Assembly (NCBI GenBank): GCA_003142535.1
Contig: PLMQ01000064.1
Span: 131,568 to 174,763, forward strand
Direction of reading: 5' to 3'
DNA length: 43,196 nucleotides
Source: Syntrophaceae bacterium
GTDB lineage: Bacteria; Desulfobacterota; Syntrophia; Syntrophales; Smithellaceae
The notes below the pieces were generated by a model. It ran no database searches. It was not told the origin of the DNA and worked only from the letters and a program-made list of their open reading frames with translations. The position numbers and the translations under genes were made by a program. Position 1 is the first letter of the stretch; every line of letters begins with the position of its first letter. Shown piece after piece: positions 10,306 to 26,978 of this stretch.

Positions 10306-10327
10306 GGTAGTGACTCATTTTGAATAT
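10306..10327 (+). repeat. Left terminal inverted repeat of element A
   Basis: 22 bp starting GGTAGTGACTC; exact reverse complement of 13560-13581. The first bases GGTAGTG are shared with the end of element B. Confidence 0.92.
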
Positions 10328-10398
10328 AAATATTTTTGTTGATTAATTTCATAAAAAGCATACAGTTTTTCTCCAATAATAAATAAGGGGGAGTAAAT

Positions 10399-10554
10399 AT
10401 GCTGTCTATTGATAATAAGTTAAAGGCAATGGAATTGGTTGTTAGAGTTGTCGAAAAGATGGCAAGCCCAGCACCAACATCACGCCCTGATCTAGCCGGA
10501 ACCGCTATTGAAGAAATTTACAAAAAAATTACCGAGCTTTTGGAGAAGGCTTAA
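10399..10554 (+). CDS. 51-residue protein of unknown function (element A cargo)
   Basis: Short reading frame starting at ATG 10399 behind a strong ribosome binding site (AAGGGGGAG, about 6 nt away). The protein (MLSIDNKLKAMELVVRVVEK..., ending KITELLEKA) is mostly helical with one Pro-rich break (SPAPTSRP) in the middle. I do not recognise a family. It is the first gene inside the left terminus, and its last 26 bp overlap tail-to-tail with the opposite-strand 48-codon gene. Being so short it could be spurious, but the ribosome binding site and the absence of rare-codon oddities support it. Confidence 0.5.
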   Translation: MLSIDNKLKAMELVVRVVEKMASPAPTSRPDLAGTAIEEIYKKITELLEKA

Positions 10555-10675
10555 TCTTCTTTGCTTTCTCGCTCAAAAGCTTAACTAGGCAGCTATAGGT
10601 TTTTCCCAGTTCCTCGATGGATGAATCTTTGGCGTAACCTTGTGCAAATCGCAAAAGTTCAATTTTATTATCCAT
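10529..10675 (-). CDS. 48-residue protein of unknown function (element A cargo)
   Basis: Reading frame on the minus strand from ATG 10675, preceded by AAGGAG at good spacing and by a near-consensus promoter with palindromic operators (10718-10757). The product (MDNKIELLRFAQGYAKDSSI...) is helical and basic at its C-terminus (KAKKIKPSPKAR). No family recognised. It is convergent with the 51-codon gene and overlaps it by 26 bp. The combination of a small protein, an opposite overlapping small gene and a repressor-type promoter could suit a regulatory or toxin-antitoxin-like unit, but nothing in the residues proves this. Confidence 0.55.
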   Translation of the reverse strand: MDNKIELLRFAQGYAKDSSIEELGKTYSCLVKLLSEKAKKIKPSPKAR

Positions 10676-10717
10676 GATATTATCTCCTTTTTAATTACTA
10701 GCATAACTATCTATTTA

Positions 10718-10757
10718 CTAATAATTAATTATTAGAACGATCGTTCTACTATGTCAA
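10718..10757 (-). promoter_or_regulatory. Promoter with two overlapping palindromes, one LexA-box-like
   Basis: Reading leftward: -35 TTGACA (10757-10752), 17-bp spacer, -10 TAATAA (10734-10729). The spacer contains the perfect 16-bp palindrome TAGAACGATCGTTCTA (10733-10748), which fits GAAC-N4-GTTC as in Gram-positive-type LexA sites. A second perfect 18-bp palindrome CTAATAATTAATTATTAG (10718-10735) covers the -10 and likely start site. Both arrangements are classic repressor-site positions. It drives the 48-codon gene. Which repressor binds is unknown. Confidence 0.75.
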
Positions 10758-10832
10758 GGGGAAAATTTAATTAAAATTAATTTGCCACAAGCGGTTATAT
10801 CGCTGTATGCTTCTTGTGAAGAAAAAAAGTGT

Positions 10833-10863
10833 TTGCTGTACAGCAATTTTTTGTGCTTATAAT
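10833..10863 (+). promoter_or_regulatory. Candidate promoter with 14-bp palindrome
   Basis: The perfect palindrome TTGCTGTACAGCAA (10833-10846) begins at a possible -35 (TTGCTG) and is followed by a consensus -10 TATAAT (10858-10863), a 19-bp spacing. It lies about 30 bp upstream of the 28-codon ORF. The long spacing makes the -35 assignment uncertain. Confidence 0.5.
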
Positions 10864-10891
10864 AGCGCAAAGAATAGAAAGGAGAATTATT

Positions 10892-10978
10892 ATGCCGCCC
10901 CCAATATTCCAGCCCCGCAGCTATAAGCTGGCGGGCGGGGTGAACATAGAAATAAAAAAATACAGGAAAGAGGGTTAA
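10892..10978 (+). CDS. 28-residue leader-like peptide (element A)
   Basis: ATG 10892 lies behind AAAGGAG (8 nt) and a TATAAT-containing promoter. The peptide is MPPPIFQPRSYKLAGGVNIE followed by IKKYRKEG. Its second half overlaps the left arm of a 12-bp hairpin (10961-10972). The GC-rich start, which itself can fold (CCCCGC...GCGGGG region), differs sharply from the AT-rich surroundings. It may be a leader peptide/attenuator ahead of the transposase or a small functional peptide; I do not recognise it. Confidence 0.4.
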   Translation: MPPPIFQPRSYKLAGGVNIEIKKYRKEG

Positions 10979-11004
10979 CCTTTGCCGGTGGTCTCTTTCC
11001 TGTA
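10961..11004 (+). terminator. 12-bp perfect hairpin upstream of the transposase
   Basis: TACAGGAAAGAG (10961-10972) pairs exactly with CTCTTTCCTGTA (10993-11004) across a 20-nt loop. No U-tract follows, so it is not a canonical terminator. It could block read-through transcription into the transposase gene or be part of an attenuator with the 28-codon ORF. Confidence 0.45.
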
Positions 11005-11085
11005 TCCCGCACCTTTTTCAAGGCACATTGTTCATATGCCTGAAAATAATCCCAAAAAATAAATCTGTCAAGTGCAAAATAATGC

Positions 11086-11135
11086 TTGACATGCTTGAGC
11101 CGCTCAAGTATATTAGCCTCAAGATTAACTTGAGG
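11086..11135 (+). promoter_or_regulatory. Transposase promoter with paired CTTGAG palindromes
   Basis: -35 TTGACA (11086-11091), 17-bp spacer and -10 TATATT (11109-11114). The spacer is almost filled by CTTGAGC-C-GCTCAAG (11094-11108). A second palindrome, CCTCAAG-attaa-CTTGAGG (11117-11135), lies between the -10 and the ribosome binding site. Both use the same CTTGAG half-site, so they look like a two-site operator; the second could also fold in the mRNA next to the ribosome binding site. Confidence 0.75.
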
Positions 11136-11143
11136 TGAGGAAA

Positions 11144-11965
11144 ATGAACAAACTAAGCACAGAAAAAAGAACACAGATTATAAGCTGTCTTGTAGAAGGT
11201 AACTCGCTTCGCGCCACTGCAAGAATGTGTGATGTTGCGTTTAATACCGTTCTTAAATTCATACCCGAAATAGGAATGGCTTGTGATGAATATCAAGACA
11301 AGGCTTTTCGTAATCTCAACTGCAAACGAATCCAATGTGATGAAATATGGACATTTTGTTATGCCAAAGAAAAAAATGTACCGGAAGATAAAAAGGGTAC
11401 TTTTGGTTATGGTGACGTGTGGACTTGGGTAGCCCTTGACGCAGATACAAAGCTAGTACCTTCGTTCATGGTCGGCAATCGTGATGCAAAGAGCGCCAAA
11501 ATATTCATGGATGATCTTGCCGCTCGTCTTGCTAATCGTGTTCAATTAACAACTGATGGATATAAAGTATATCTGGAAGCCGTTGACAACGCCTTTGGTG
11601 GCGATATTGATTATGCAATGCTCGTTAAGACATATGAATCAAGTCAAGAGGAAACTCGTTATAGTCCGGCAAAATGCAAAGGAAGCGATAAAAAAAGAAT
11701 TTGCGGAAATCCTGACACGAAAAATGTTTCTACCAGTTATGTTGAACGTCAAAACCTGACTATGAGAATGTGCATGAGAAGATTTACTCGACTAACAAAT
11801 GGGTTTAGTAAAAAGATTGAAAACCATGTTTATCATTTATCCCTGCATTACATGTATTATAATTTTTGTCGTGTCCATAAAACATTAAGGGTAACTCCGG
11901 CAATGGAAGCGGGGATTACAGATCACATTTGGGGTATTGATGAAATTGTCAGACTTATTGGCTAA
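11144..11965 (+). CDS. IS1-like DDE transposase (element A)
   Basis: Single-ORF transposase of 273 residues. An N-terminal helix-turn-helix region (about 5-40, SLRATARMCDVAFNTVLKF) should bind the terminal repeats. Catalytic residues are D66 (QCDEIW), D138 (TTDGY) and E201 (YVERQN), with the family blocks [12 protein letters not shown] and [10 protein letters not shown] near the C-terminus. ATG 11144 is chosen over an upstream in-frame GTG because GGTGAGG then serves as ribosome binding site. It is clearly homologous to the element B transposase throughout but far from identical. The gene appears intact. Confidence 0.9.
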   Translation: MNKLSTEKRTQIISCLVEGNSLRATARMCDVAFNTVLKFIPEIGMACDEYQDKAFRNLNCKRIQCDEIWTFCYAKEKNVPEDKKGTFGYGDVWTWVALDADTKLVPSFMVGNRDAKSAKIFMDDLAARLANRVQLTTDGYKVYLEAVDNAFGGDIDYAMLVKTYESSQEETRYSPAKCKGSDKKRICGNPDTKNVSTSYVERQNLTMRMCMRRFTRLTNGFSKKIENHVYHLSLHYMYYNFCRVHKTLRVTPAMEAGITDHIWGIDEIVRLIG

Positions 11966-11969
11966 AAAC

Positions 11970-12000
11970 AACAAAGCCGGAAAAACATCCCGGCTTTGTT
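11970..12000 (+). terminator. Rho-independent-type terminator after the transposase
   Basis: An 11-bp perfect stem AACAAAGCCGG / CCGGCTTTGTT with a 9-nt loop, starting 4 nt after the transposase stop codon and followed by an AT-rich tract (TTAAATATTAATTT). It separates the transposase from the oppositely oriented cargo. Confidence 0.75.
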
Positions 12001-12113
12001 AAATATTAATTTAAAAAACACTAAAACCCTCTTTCTCCGTTCATAATTAGCTCCTCCTCTTTCCAGTTAACTTGTGTCAATACTTAATTGCTTTTTATTT
12101 GTCAAGCAAATAA

Positions 12114-13019
12114 TTAATCTTTAAATTCTTTAAATTTATCTTCTTCTTCAAAAAGCCATTTTAAATCATTATCGTTTTTGGCATACAAAAGAAGTCCATT
12201 AGATAATTCAACCGAATTTTTAAAAGCGTCATATGCCTCATTTATTAATCTATCGTGTTCCATTGGATTGTCAATAGTATTTTGTGCTTTTAAGGCATGA
12301 TAACAAGCTATATTATAATATGCATCCGCTTTATCAATAGAGTCATGGGCTTTATTGAATTTATTAGTGTTATTATCAATTTCCTCTATAAAAGCCCTTA
12401 ATGTTATTATTGCTTCATTATATTCTTTATTTGCCCGTAAAAGTCTACCAAGATAGATATTTAAACTTCTATCACGTTTAAATTTATTACGTATTAATTT
12501 TAAATTAACTATAGCTGAATCTATATCAACTTTTTGTTTTGTGTTTAGAGCAGTTTCTGCATCTAACATTGCTTTGGTATATTCCATGTTTTCATTGGTT
12601 ACGGTAATTGCGCTGTCTACTTTTTCACTGACTTTGTCAATCTTTTCATTAATTATTTGTTCTGCAAGCTTTCTTCGCAACTGTGGTAATATAGTAAATC
12701 CTATAGTACCCGCTGCAACACAAAAACAAGACAAAAATAATAAATTCCCCGTTGTGGCTTCGAGTGAAAGCTTTCCCATCCAAAAACCTAGAAAGGAAAC
12801 ACAAAATGCACCAGCTATTCCTATAAGTGCCCTCCGGAAAAAATAAGCATTATTACATTTGATACAACCATGTTCTATTGGTTTTTGTGCTGATTGCGTA
12901 TCAAAATTGTCAAAGATTGAAGACGCAAAGCCACCAAACCCACCGCCCAGTATTATAATTAGTAATACCTCAAAAAAATTCAACGCATTTGAAGAAACAT
13001 TCACGGGTACATTAACCAC
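12114..13019 (-). CDS. Membrane protein with C-terminal TPR-like helices (element A cargo)
   Basis: About 301 residues, function unknown. The N-terminal part has three likely membrane segments (near residues 14-34, 62-82 and 90-110) with a CIKC pair between the first two. A helical, coiled-coil-prone stretch follows (QIINEKIDKVSEKVDSAIT). The C-terminal half looks like TPR helices (YLGRLLRANKEYNEAI; ADAYYNIACYHALKAQ) and ends with a DNDLKWLFEEEDKF tail often seen after TPR units. Start: the longest frame opens at TTG 13025, but GTG 13019 stands 7 nt after AAGGAA and is preferred. It is carried on the mobile element, opposite to the transposase. Confidence 0.7.
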   Translation of the reverse strand: MVNVPVNVSSNALNFFEVLLIIILGGGFGGFASSIFDNFDTQSAQKPIEHGCIKCNNAYFFRRALIGIAGAFCVSFLGFWMGKLSLEATTGNLLFLSCFCVAAGTIGFTILPQLRRKLAEQIINEKIDKVSEKVDSAITVTNENMEYTKAMLDAETALNTKQKVDIDSAIVNLKLIRNKFKRDRSLNIYLGRLLRANKEYNEAIITLRAFIEEIDNNTNKFNKAHDSIDKADAYYNIACYHALKAQNTIDNPMEHDRLINEAYDAFKNSVELSNGLLLYAKNDNDLKWLFEEEDKFKEFKD

Positions 13020-13161
13020 AATCAATTTCCTTAAATTTATTATTGATGATTAATAAATTAACATTTATACATCTTATAATCAATAAAAGATTTATCCAAT
13101 ATTGTTATCGTCCAACAGTTAACTATACTTAAATTTAAGCATAATATATACCATATATATC

Positions 13162-13179
13162 TCAAACTGACCCACTACC
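13162..13179 (-). repeat. Internal IS-end-like sequence 1 in element A
   Basis: TCAAACTGACCCACTACC matches the right terminal repeat of element B (TCAAACTGATACACTACC) at 16 of 18 positions and has the same orientation as element A's own right end. It is followed by AAAAAATC. Confidence 0.65.
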
Positions 13180-13241
13180 AAAAAATCAATATGATTGCAC
13201 AACTACATTAAACATATTATAAGGAAAGAAAACAATTATGA

Positions 13242-13261
13242 TTAAAACTGAACCACTATCC
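13242..13261 (-). repeat. Internal IS-end-like sequence 2 in element A
   Basis: TTAAAACTGAACCACTATCC resembles the same IS end with two or three substitutions and one extra T before CC. It is again oriented like a right end and is followed by AATGTTTG, which resembles the outer target duplication AAATGTTA. It lies just before the 3' end of the small basic protein gene. A 10-codon frame beginning at ATG 13238 spans it and is unlikely to be a real gene. Confidence 0.45.
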
Positions 13262-13270
13262 AATGTTTGA

Positions 13271-13516
13271 CTATTTTTCTGAAAGGTTTTTACTTTTCCA
13301 CCTAGCTTTAGCAGCTTTTTTTGCTATTTCTGAACGTTTCTTAGCGGATAAACTTTCCGCCCTTGCTTTGCCGCCCTTTAAACCGCCCTTGCGTCCGATT
13401 TCGGCTAGGTATTTTGAAATCTCTGATCGCTCCGGTTGTTCTTCGGTAGAAAGCTGCACAATAGCGTGCGCCAATTTATTCGCGTCTTTCGGTAATGGTT
13501 TGCTTGATCGCCTCAT
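13271..13516 (-). CDS. Small basic KGG/IAKKAAK-motif protein (element A)
   Basis: 81 residues. The N-terminus (KDANKLAHAIVQLSTEE) is followed by a glycine-lysine-rich block (GRKGGLKGGKARAESLS) and the basic end RSEIAKKAAKARW. The same layout occurs in the element B protein at 24641-24859, so this is one family. Histone-H1-like annotation is sometimes given to such sequences, but function is unknown; nucleic-acid binding is a guess from charge. It is the gene nearest the right terminus, about 45 bp away, and reads inward toward the membrane-TPR gene. A second ATG lies 4 nt upstream in another frame; no strong ribosome binding site is seen. Confidence 0.7.
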   Translation of the reverse strand: MRRSSKPLPKDANKLAHAIVQLSTEEQPERSEISKYLAEIGRKGGLKGGKARAESLSAKKRSEIAKKAAKARWKSKNLSEK

Positions 13517-13559
13517 GCATCCAATATATTAAAGAACTGGAAAATAGTCAAGCCGTGAT

Positions 13560-13581
13560 ATATTCAAAATGAGTCACTACC
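13560..13581 (-). repeat. Right terminal inverted repeat of element A
   Basis: 22 bp ending GAGTCACTACC, the exact reverse complement of 10306-10327. It is followed at once by the second AAATGTTA copy (13582-13589), which abuts the prfB stop codon. Confidence 0.92.
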
Positions 13582-24389: not shown

Positions 24390-24397
24390 GAATTGTT
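24390..24397. repeat. Left target-site duplication of element B (GAATTGTT)
   Basis: GAATTGTT precedes the left end and recurs at 26964-26971 right after the right end. A neighbouring C could extend the match to 9 bp. Confidence 0.85.
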
Positions 24398-24415
24398 GGC
24401 AGTGTATCAGTTTGA
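24398..24415 (+). repeat. Left terminal inverted repeat of element B
   Basis: GGCAGTGTATCAGTTTGA; differs from the reverse complement of the right end only at position 3 (C for T). Confidence 0.88.
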
Positions 24416-24640
24416 TTCTTGGGCCCCTTGATTTCCTGCTCATGAGTCTATATAATAAATTAAAATATTGCCATTATATTTAGTATATGGCATAGGGCTT
24501 GCTGCTAAAATATTGCATATATTAGCCGATAAATAAGGCTGATAGTGCTTTTGGACTTATTAAAAAAGTGTTGTTATTAAAAACAATATGCTATAAAAGC
24601 ACAAAGCGTTGTAATAAATAGTCACGAAGGAGTCATATTG

Positions 24641-24859
24641 ATGGCAGTTGGCCCGAATGGTGAGCATAGACCGGCTGATTTAATCGGATGCGCCATTGTA
24701 TCTGCACGTCTTGCTACAGGCGAAATAGAAGAATTACTTAAATCAAAATCTGGCAGAACTCGAAGCGGGAAAGCTGGTGCGAAAGCACGTGCCGACAAGC
24801 TAACAAAACAACAACGATCAGATATTGCCAAAAAGGCAGCAAAGAAGAGGTGGGGGTAA
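24641..24859 (+). CDS. Small basic KGG/IAKKAAK-motif protein (element B)
   Basis: 72 residues from ATG 24641, 8 nt after GAAGGAG (an in-frame TTG lies one codon upstream). The N-terminal half (RPADLIGCAIVSARLATGE) corresponds to that of the element A protein, and the C-terminal half (GKAGAKARADKLTKQQ, then RSDIAKKAAKKRW) matches it closely. It is the first gene inside the left terminus and reads inward, as its relative does in element A. It heads a four-gene operon. Function is unknown; binding to DNA or RNA is a guess from the Lys/Arg content. Confidence 0.75.
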   Translation: MAVGPNGEHRPADLIGCAIVSARLATGEIEELLKSKSGRTRSGKAGAKARADKLTKQQRSDIAKKAAKKRWG

Positions 24860-24861
24860 AA

Positions 24862-25119
24862 ATGGCTGAAAATAAGTTCAAATTGCAGCTTCCTAATGGT
24901 AACATTGGGGAAGGGGTGGATGTACCTATTAAGGAATCAAGTGAGAGTTCGGCTATTGTAAAGCTGGAAGATGGCACGATTCTCCGAGTTAAGTTTTCAA
25001 TAATTCAGGTAATAAGAGCTGATGGCGAATATGATCCAGATGGGAATACCTTTTATGCTGTAAAAGGTGCTCCCATGGTAGCAATAACGTCTATTAAAGA
25101 TGAACTGCGGAAAAAGTAA
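24862..25119 (+). CDS. 85-residue protein of unknown function (element B cargo)
   Basis: Starts at ATG 24862, two bases after the preceding stop codon, with GTGGGGG as ribosome binding site; an earlier in-frame ATG at 24850 would overlap the upstream gene. The sequence (KFKLQLPNGNIGEGVDVPIK..., SSAIVKLEDGTILRVKFSII) looks mostly beta-strand, possibly a small barrel. No family recognised. Its TAA overlaps the next ATG by one base (TAATG), indicating translational coupling. Confidence 0.7.
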   Translation: MAENKFKLQLPNGNIGEGVDVPIKESSESSAIVKLEDGTILRVKFSIIQVIRADGEYDPDGNTFYAVKGAPMVAITSIKDELRKK

Positions 25120-25616
25120 TGAGTGGTATTAATTATATAAAAGCTGAGACAGCGCAATCATCTAAAGCGATATATCCTTTGGAATATGTCGCTCCCATTT
25201 CATGTTTCCCGCCGAACCAGACCGGAGAATACATGGGAACAAGTGGGGGCAATATTATTGCCGTAAATATAAATATGGAGGTCAGTATAATGATTATGCC
25301 AGTTCAACAAACTCAGCAAGATATGTCATTAATGCGTAACGTTATATCTGCCTTATTTCGCAATAGAGATTTTCTCGGATATCAGTTGAGCTATTATAAA
25401 GGTAATTTAACAAAAAAACAATTCGACATTGTGAAAAAAAAGTATCTTGTCCCTAATAATGTTTGTGATGTTAATATCTTAGCGAATAATGTTTACACAT
25501 TAATTAAAAATACAGAACTTAATTTTGACGCAGATAAAATTTCAACAATGTTTCAATGTGATATTGATGTTGCGGAAGAAGCTCTTACAAAATTAGAAAA
25601 TAGTTTAACTACATGA
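25119..25616 (+). CDS. 165-residue protein of unknown function (element B cargo)
   Basis: Begins at the ATG of a TAATG overlap and ends in an ATGA overlap with the following gene. The first 55 residues look irregular with scattered Pro, Gly and Asn; the rest is helical (MRNVISALFRNRDFLGYQL; CDIDVAEEALTKLEN near the end). No signal peptide, membrane segment or recognised motif. An internal ATG at 25278 with GGAGG upstream is a possible alternative start giving about 112 residues. Confidence 0.7.
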   Translation: MSGINYIKAETAQSSKAIYPLEYVAPISCFPPNQTGEYMGTSGGNIIAVNINMEVSIMIMPVQQTQQDMSLMRNVISALFRNRDFLGYQLSYYKGNLTKKQFDIVKKKYLVPNNVCDVNILANNVYTLIKNTELNFDADKISTMFQCDIDVAEEALTKLENSLTT

Positions 25617-26029
25617 CTGAATTCGTGAGAGTTGGCGAGTCAATTGAAGGATTAAAAATAGAAGGATGTTCCCGTGATCTTTTAAGTGACATGGGACTTT
25701 GTCGTTATAAAGATAAAGATTATAATCGTTATATTGCCTCTTTTAACGTAAAATCAAGAATCGTATCAAAAATACCCCAAAATATACAAAAGATTGATGA
25801 CGCCGCACATTGCGATTCAAAGGATGAGTTAACCTGCGATAAAGTTTTTATTCATTCCCTTAGTCACAAATATTCTTCAAAGGCCTCAAGTAATATTTCT
25901 GCAAGACATGGTGCAAATTTATGGCGTTTTCCCAAACAAACAAATGTAAAAATTACTCTACCTCATCACGAACTACAAAATGCTATAAGCAAAAGAGAAA
26001 CAAAACAGCTTGGTATTTCAAAAAAATAA
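25613..26029 (+). CDS. 138-residue protein of unknown function (element B cargo)
   Basis: Starts in an ATGA overlap with the previous stop codon, so it is translationally coupled. Cys- and His-containing segments (EGCSRDLLSDMGLCRYKDKD, HSLSHKY, LPHHEL) are present but no known metal-binding or catalytic pattern emerges. The C-terminus is basic (KRETKQLGISKK). It is the last cargo gene before the transposase, 70 bp upstream. Family unknown. Confidence 0.68.
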   Translation: MTEFVRVGESIEGLKIEGCSRDLLSDMGLCRYKDKDYNRYIASFNVKSRIVSKIPQNIQKIDDAAHCDSKDELTCDKVFIHSLSHKYSSKASSNISARHGANLWRFPKQTNVKITLPHHELQNAISKRETKQLGISKK

Positions 26030-26093
26030 TCCCAAAAAATATTTATTTAAACTGAAAATAATGCTTGCTATTGTGGTTTTCCTGTGTTATGTA
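26025..26093 (+). promoter_or_regulatory. Upstream region of the element B transposase
   Basis: AATAATCCCAAAAAAT (26025-26040) and AAAATAATGCTTG (about 26055-26067) recur at nearly the same spacing (35 versus 36 bp) upstream of the element A transposase (11045-11088). A weak promoter TTGCTA (26065-26070), 17 bp, TATGTA (26088-26093) would put the transcript start at or beyond the ATG, so the message may be leaderless or come from the upstream operon. Confidence 0.5.
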
Positions 26094-26099
26094 TAAGCC

Positions 26100-26954
26100 A
26101 TGAACAAGCTAACTTTAGATAAACGAGTCCAAATCCTGAACATGCTTTGCGAGGGTTCTTCCATGCGATCTATTTCTCGCGTGGTTGGCATTTCCATTAA
26201 TACGGTTGTTAAGCTATTAGTGGACGCGGGAAAGGCTTGTGCTGCGTACCATGATGAACATGTCCGTAACCTCAAATGCAAACGTATTCAATGCGACGAG
26301 ATTTGGGCTTTTTGTTATGCTAAACAGAAGAACGTAGAAACCGCAAAAAAAGTTGTTTACGGTGCTAGTGATGTTTGGAACTGGACAAGTTTAGACGCTG
26401 ATTCAAAGCTGATCTGTAATTGGGTTGTGGGTAGTCGTGATGCTAGTTATGCATACGCCTTAATGCACGATCTATGTAGTCGCCTCACTAACCGTGTCCA
26501 ACTTACAACAGACGGTCACAAGGCATATTTAGAAGCTGTTGAAAGTGCATTCGGTGGTGATATTGATTACGCACAACTTGTTAAACTTTATGGTGACACA
26601 CCGGAATCAGCAAAAGGGAAATATAGTCCTGCTGAATGTAATGGCTCCCTAAAAAAAGTAATTGAAGGAAAACCTGATAAAAAAGACATAAGTACATCTT
26701 ATGTTGAACGTCAAAATCTAACCATGCGTATGTCTATGCGCCGTTTTACACGCTTAACCAATGGCTTTTCAAAGAAATTAGAAAACCATGAACACGCTCT
26801 CGCGCTCTATTTTGTTTATTATAACTTTGTACGGATTCATAAGACTTTGCGTGTTACTCCTGCTATGGCAGCAGGGATAACTGATAAACTTTTTGAAATG
26901 GCAGACATTGTAAAAATCGCTGATGATTATTTAGAAAAACAAAATTCAAACTGA
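26100..26954 (+). CDS. IS1-like DDE transposase (element B)
   Basis: 284 residues, homologous over its whole length to the element A enzyme. The N-terminal HTH ([20 protein letters not shown]) is followed by catalytic D66 (QCDEIW), D138 (TTDGH) and E203 (YVERQN), and the blocks [12 protein letters not shown] and [10 protein letters not shown]. No ribosome binding site precedes ATG 26100. The stop codon TGA (26952-26954) lies inside the right terminal repeat, so the end sequence is partly coding. The frame is intact and the enzyme may be active. Confidence 0.9.
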
Positions 26955-26963
26955 TACACTACC
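26946..26963 (-). repeat. Right terminal inverted repeat of element B
   Basis: TCAAACTGATACACTACC, followed at once by the second GAATTGTT copy (26964-26971). It overlaps the last codons of the transposase. Confidence 0.88.
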
Positions 26964-26978
26964 GAATTGTTATATTTT

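Follow-up and report, generated by a model that had tools for sequence, protein, structure and literature searches.

A complete IS1-family transposon with a clade-associated accessory gene and a three-gene cargo of possible toxin–antitoxin type

The four tightly packed genes P1 to P4 in the window, by which we mean the whole stretch of 43,196 nucleotides of Syntrophaceae DNA analysed here, lie inside a complete IS1-family element, hereafter element B (24398–26963, 2566 bp), upstream of its transposase. The first gene, P1, recurs throughout this transposon clade, and the remaining three most likely constitute, judging from their relatives and architecture, a tripartite toxin–antitoxin-like cassette. 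Taken alone, the identity of the transposon and the assignment of P1 as one of its parts are held with high confidence; the whole reading, in which an IS1-family unit transposon carries P1 as a helper together with a tripartite toxin–antitoxin-like or abortive-infection-type cargo (P2–P4), we regard as evenly balanced between right and wrong. The features of element B, in order along the window, are as follows.

24390..24397, no strand: left copy of the target-site duplication (GAATTGTT, 8 bp)
24398..24421, + strand: left terminal inverted repeat (GGCAGTGTATCAGTTTGATTCTTG)
24428..24456, + strand: predicted promoter-like sequence (TTGATT-17-TATAAT) close behind the left end
24641..24859, + strand: P1, ORF for a 72-aa basic protein (pI 10.6) with a tail of the type GGxARAxxLTxxxRxxIAxxAAxxRW
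24862..25119, + strand: P2, ORF for an 85-aa acidic all-beta protein, in a family of its own
25119..25616, + strand: P3, orphan ORF of 165 codons, with a helical C-terminal part in a low-confidence model
25613..26029, + strand: P4, orphan ORF for a 138-aa basic protein (pI 9.4)
26065..26093, + strand: candidate transposase promoter TTGCTA-17-TATGTA, predicted by comparison with upstream regions aligned from sister elements
26100..26954, + strand: IS1-family transposase of 284 aa in a single frame, recognised by family profiles; the fifth gene, after P1–P4
26940..26963, - strand: right terminal inverted repeat, pairing with the left end
26964..26971, no strand: right copy of the target-site duplication (GAATTGTT)

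The two ends of element B match at 19/22 positions (GGCAGTGTATCAGTTTG / GGTAGTGTATCAGTTTG) with arms 88% complementary, and the end pattern occurred five times in the window against 0.29 occurrences expected by chance. The 8-bp duplication GAATTGTT was found on both flanks, within the 8-9 bp characteristic of the IS1 family. The transposase scored 27.1 bits against PF03400, above the cut-off of 24.1, and 67.9 bits (E 1.1e-18) against NF033558, which is under the equivalog cut-off of 100. Transposase type, inverted repeats and target duplication are thus all those of the IS1 family, confirming the placement of the four genes within IS1-like ends that had been proposed in the sequence-only reading. 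Element B is located between a tRNA-Leu gene and a tRNA-Pro gene, and its own genome harbors one complete copy of it, in addition to a 61% related element A (10306–13581). The latter is a mosaic with perfect outer ends (22/22) and the duplication AAATGTTA; it carries P1 on the minus strand (13271-13516), and its interior contains the end of another element (13163-13179) adjoining the gene for a 303-aa protein that matches YLATT (PF20303) weakly. Within element B, the TTGATT-17-TATAAT site, whose score was not above shuffle expectation, is the probable promoter of P1–P4, and TTGCTA-17-TATGTA is a possible separate promoter of the transposase, at a position where the sister elements exhibit better, TTGACA-type promoters.

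The layout of the operon was exactly as first described, with ORFs of 72, 85, 165 and 138 codons joined by a 2-bp gap (P1/P2), a TAATG overlap (P2/P3) and an ATGA overlap (P3/P4). Their coding character was supported by host-codon log-odds, which were positive for all four ORFs in their own frame and negative in the other five, and by dinucleotide shuffles of the region, 0/500 of which gave an ORF of at least 138 codons. The earlier remark that none of the proteins bears a familiar motif also held: scans of Pfam, NCBIfam, PHROGs and PADLOC returned no significant family for P2, P3 or P4 and, for P1, solely a short motif of an unknown PHROG, and the anti-phage defence models of PADLOC matched none of the four. 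The GC content falls from 0.40-0.47 in P1, P2 and the start of P3 to 0.28-0.34 in the P3 core and P4, which is the pattern expected of a swapped-in tail.

The assignment of P1 follows from its distribution. Among 27 related elements with both ends delimited, collected from viral contigs and genomes and including two identical copies, an exact 8-bp duplication was observed in 21 and P1 in 26 (the match in L024 being weak), nearly always leading the gene order from the left end or standing within its first few genes. Of the 15 transposase-bearing genomes in the phylum sample, 14 also have P1 (Fisher p 4e-23), and a single genome outside the transposase-bearing set, G455 in a slightly larger second sample, was found to encode it. 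Where P1 and a transposase are neighbours, the two share a strand in 14/15 pairs, with P1 0.8–2.0 kb upstream. The conserved portion of the protein is the GGxARA...R..IA..AA..RW tail, and the gene recurs beside entirely different cargo in sister elements. Judged from this distribution, P1 is an accessory gene belonging to this IS1 transposon clade whatever the cargo, and it can reasonably be viewed as a probable DNA-binding protein that assists or regulates transposition. The inference of joint function from tight packing, made in the sequence-only reading, was not supported, as P1 keeps company with unrelated cargo and P2 occurs alone in archaea or heads different tails.

Further observations concern P1 and its relatives. 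The P63C-domain proteins carried in L006, L008 and L166 start with a motif of P1's RxxIAxxAAxxRW type, and an IS1 element of this kind that deletion has shortened to 776 bp (L139, 3848-4623), bounded by an 8-bp duplication, retains P1 and a fused transposase stump. In L123, L127 and L025, palindromes like TGCTTGAGCGCTCAAGCA lie either between the promoter hexamers or close to them, for P1 as well as for the transposase; in L166 this was seen for P1 only. Their presence before both genes in some sister elements suggests one shared regulator; element B exhibited no match to this operator palindrome upstream of either P1 or the transposase.

Sister elements, those with 61-71% identical transposases among them, carry other genes in place of P2–P4, and family scans identified the following individual cases. 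Gp49/RelE-type proteins with an HTH partner were found in L121, together with a true DUF3467, and in L123; HTH–IrrE-peptidase proteins in L025, L013 and L007; PIN in L020; PemK in L017; and Abi_2/PD-T4-5 in L016. A DNA methylase with an Mrr domain is carried in L023, a type II methylase (MTase) in L008, SDH-type proteases in L117 and L124, and P63C in L006; in the cargo of some other sister elements no defence domain was recognised. The second cargo gene of L004 was considered as DUF3467-like and rejected, having no Pfam support. On contig 60 of the same genome as element B, a third copy of P1 is situated behind a left IS1 end without a transposase (L166, 3232-6260), and precedes a P63C-like gene that opens with a P1-like motif, a complete MqsR–MqsA–SecB module and, just after SecB, a possible decayed right end (TTTCAAACTGAC).

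A P2 profile built from three distant relatives led to 57 loci, and none of 36 family members gave a Pfam match apart from one weak hit; on these comparisons, P2 is an undescribed and widespread family of small beta-proteins in bacteria and archaea, for which no Pfam entry was found. Modelling P2 from the 36-sequence alignment yielded a confident structure of five strands (pLDDT 89). The structure-based search advocated in the sequence-only reading gave no significant fold match for P2: a search of solved folds gave no clear match and none with a Z of 5 or more, Foldseek returned SecB chains at an insignificant E of 0.84 and worse, and the Tudor-like, SecB and NAC rows were all weak. The gene stands solo in Methanophagales, Archaeoglobi and Dehalococcoidia, and because it does so in many archaea as well as in Dehalococcoidia, P2 is not a dedicated toxin–antitoxin component. 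Across the archaeal loci (within L047-L096) the solo gene is well conserved in Methanophagales and Archaeoglobi, and P2 is sometimes a tandem domain (L065, L092; archaeal loci). In several bacteria, P2 heads a short operon in which the next genes vary, the tails being HEPN-like (L046, L064), HicA-like (L062), DUF7689 (L043), DUF29 (L028) or unknown; the HEPN and HicA matches lie below the Pfam cut-offs.

Two of these P2 operons are enclosed in transposons bounded by target duplications, one IS1-type (L064) and one IS1595-type (L030). In L064, from a Bryobacterales MAG, a left end, P1, P2, P3, a P4 with a HEPN domain and a right end matched at 14/22 positions follow one another within 1570 bp, flanked by an exact 8-bp duplication (GACCGGTT) and with the transposase absent. 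The neighbour survey suggested earlier recovered the P1-P2-P3-P4 layout inside IS1-type ends with a duplication and not the same gene set, the P3 of L064 being unrelated to that of the window and its P4 being of the HEPN type. A viral contig (L136) exhibits a left IS1 end, a P1 83% identical to the window's, a P2 34% identical (E 3e-6) and another gene in third place; in L041 a partial P1 precedes P2 and again a different third gene, and a search for element ends at this locus found none. In L030 the P2 operon lies within 20/22 ends and an exact duplication (CATCCGCG); its last gene was considered as HicA-like and rejected as unsupported on the family check. Taken together, these four layouts indicate that P1–P2 is a recurring head, that P2 has also been taken by another transposon family and that the genes following it are exchanged.

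The tail in element B, P3 and P4, consists of orphans. No significant relatives of either were detected in viral contigs, 297 genomes of the phylum or 155 genomes of the class, and nothing significant was found for P4 in phages or for P3 in plasmids. The best P4 matches (4.8e-4 in G019, 3.8e-4 in G393) were rejected for internal stop codons, the former also overlapping unrelated genes. Sequence searches of the PDB gave insignificant matches only, LsoA for P4 at E 0.44 among them, and P3 predicted without an alignment reached a pLDDT of 41, too low for interpretation. The annotated starts of P3 and P4 have weak ribosome-binding sites, and the only good Shine-Dalgarno near P3, which is the strongest ribosome-binding site of the operon, is a GGAGGT inside P3 (25278..25283, + strand), about 7 nt before an in-frame ATG at 25290 (codon 58). 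The best GC change point also falls within P3, at 25251 (0.41 to 0.31), codons 1–57 having a GC of 0.40 against 0.28 in the remainder (permutation p 0.013). Because the strongest ribosome-binding site precedes codon 58 and GC drops inside the gene, a P3 core of 108 aa is likely; the true P3 may start at ATG 25290, with codons 1–57 perhaps serving as a leader or N-terminal extension. An N-terminal extension common to P3 proteins was considered, and a motif search by eye found none.

The 108-aa core would be near neutral (pI 6.2) and is followed by the basic P4 (pI 9.4), a pattern of size and charge that is common in toxin–antitoxin pairs and proves nothing by itself. The pair also has the dimensions of a type II toxin–antitoxin module, with 108 or 165 aa plus 138 aa and an ATGA overlap. 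What speaks against the cargo reading is that searches of Pfam, NCBIfam, PHROGs and PADLOC linked neither P3 nor P4 to any toxin, antitoxin or defence family.

Of the undescribed system envisaged in the sequence-only reading, a role in defence or element maintenance stands as the best guess for the cargo, a role as transposition helper stands for P1 only, and a single four-gene system does not; the genes being found singly and scattered, which that reading had named as evidence against it, proved partly true, for P1 and P2. A broader proposal is tentative: P2 may be a common partner of many unrelated toxin–antitoxin or abortive-infection pairs, forming an undescribed class of mobile tripartite cassettes that two or more transposon families mobilise and in which P3–P4 would be a new effector pair. 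It is rather unlikely that P2–P4 were captured by accident, have a different (phage-related, metabolic or regulatory) role and constitute neutral cargo. P3 and P4 without known relatives, P2 as a widespread and mostly solo archaeal gene and the location of some relatives in phage contigs would all suit such a capture, but P2-headed operons with toxin–antitoxin-like tails are repeatedly found as transposon cargo, in two families at least, and the sister IS1 elements often carry defence-type genes. Less probable still, P3 and P4 might be decayed or frame-shifted remnants of earlier cargo, open by chance and non-functional; the missing homologs, the weak sites at the annotated starts, the low GC and the low-confidence P3 structure agree with decay, whereas the uninterrupted frames of 165 and 138 codons, a coding-type codon use confined to those frames, a length of 138 codons that no shuffle reached and stop-start overlaps consistent with translational coupling speak against it. 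That all four genes serve transposition, P1 as a DNA-binding accessory and P2–P4 as regulators or target-choice factors, is the least probable, for although they lie between the ends upstream of the transposase and P1 clearly travels with it, sister elements with 61-71% identical transposases have other genes instead of P2–P4, and P2 is found outside transposons as well as together with a transposase of the unrelated IS1595 type.

Under the toxin–antitoxin-like reading, for which all biochemical roles of P1–P4 are predicted ones, the operon would be transcribed from the promoter near the left end and the transposase from its own, with P1 acting on the element ends or promoters. The basic P4, encoded last, would be the toxic effector, to be neutralised or regulated by its partner P3 or the 108-aa core of P3, and P2 would serve as a conserved accessory for different partner pairs, for example in folding or stability. 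Such a cassette would help the element to persist and might also limit phages. These observations separate a transposon-borne helper, P1, from exchangeable cargo and indicate that toxin–antitoxin and defence genes, a cargo usually considered in connection with larger transposons, also travel in IS1-type elements of 1.3–4.2 kb. For locating more such cassettes the P2 family offers a sequence handle, and the small size of the orphan pair P3–P4 makes direct testing practicable.

Single-frame IS1 members with passenger genes presumably correspond to the ISMhu11 subgroup of ISfinder. Element B resembles this subgroup in its one-frame IS1-type DDE transposase, its GGYAGTG end starts and its 8-bp duplication, and differs in being larger (2.6 kb, four passenger genes) and in the conserved P1. 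A partial literature search found no paper mentioning ISMhu11 and none on IS1 elements with P1 or P2, so that novelty is provisional. Small transposons with integral toxin–antitoxin pairs are known in the Tn3 family (PMC7157771), with which element B and its relatives share varied toxin–antitoxin-type pairs beside transposition genes and transposase-less cassettes (compare L064); here, however, the transposase family is another one, no resolvase is present, and the shared P1, joined in element B by the P2 head, precedes the varied tail. Defence cargo is likewise known from Tn7-like elements (PMC8649781). In toxin–antitoxin–chaperone (TAC) modules, one conserved partner serves different toxin–antitoxin pairs (PMC5105189), a three-gene logic that P2 could follow by analogy, although the 85-aa P2 cannot be recognised as a SecB and a true MqsR-MqsA-SecB module is located elsewhere in the same genome. 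As for HEPN-type toxin modules, the window's P4 exhibits no HEPN match, whereas L064, with a HEPN-domain protein as its last gene, shares the P1-P2-P3-P4 layout of element B.
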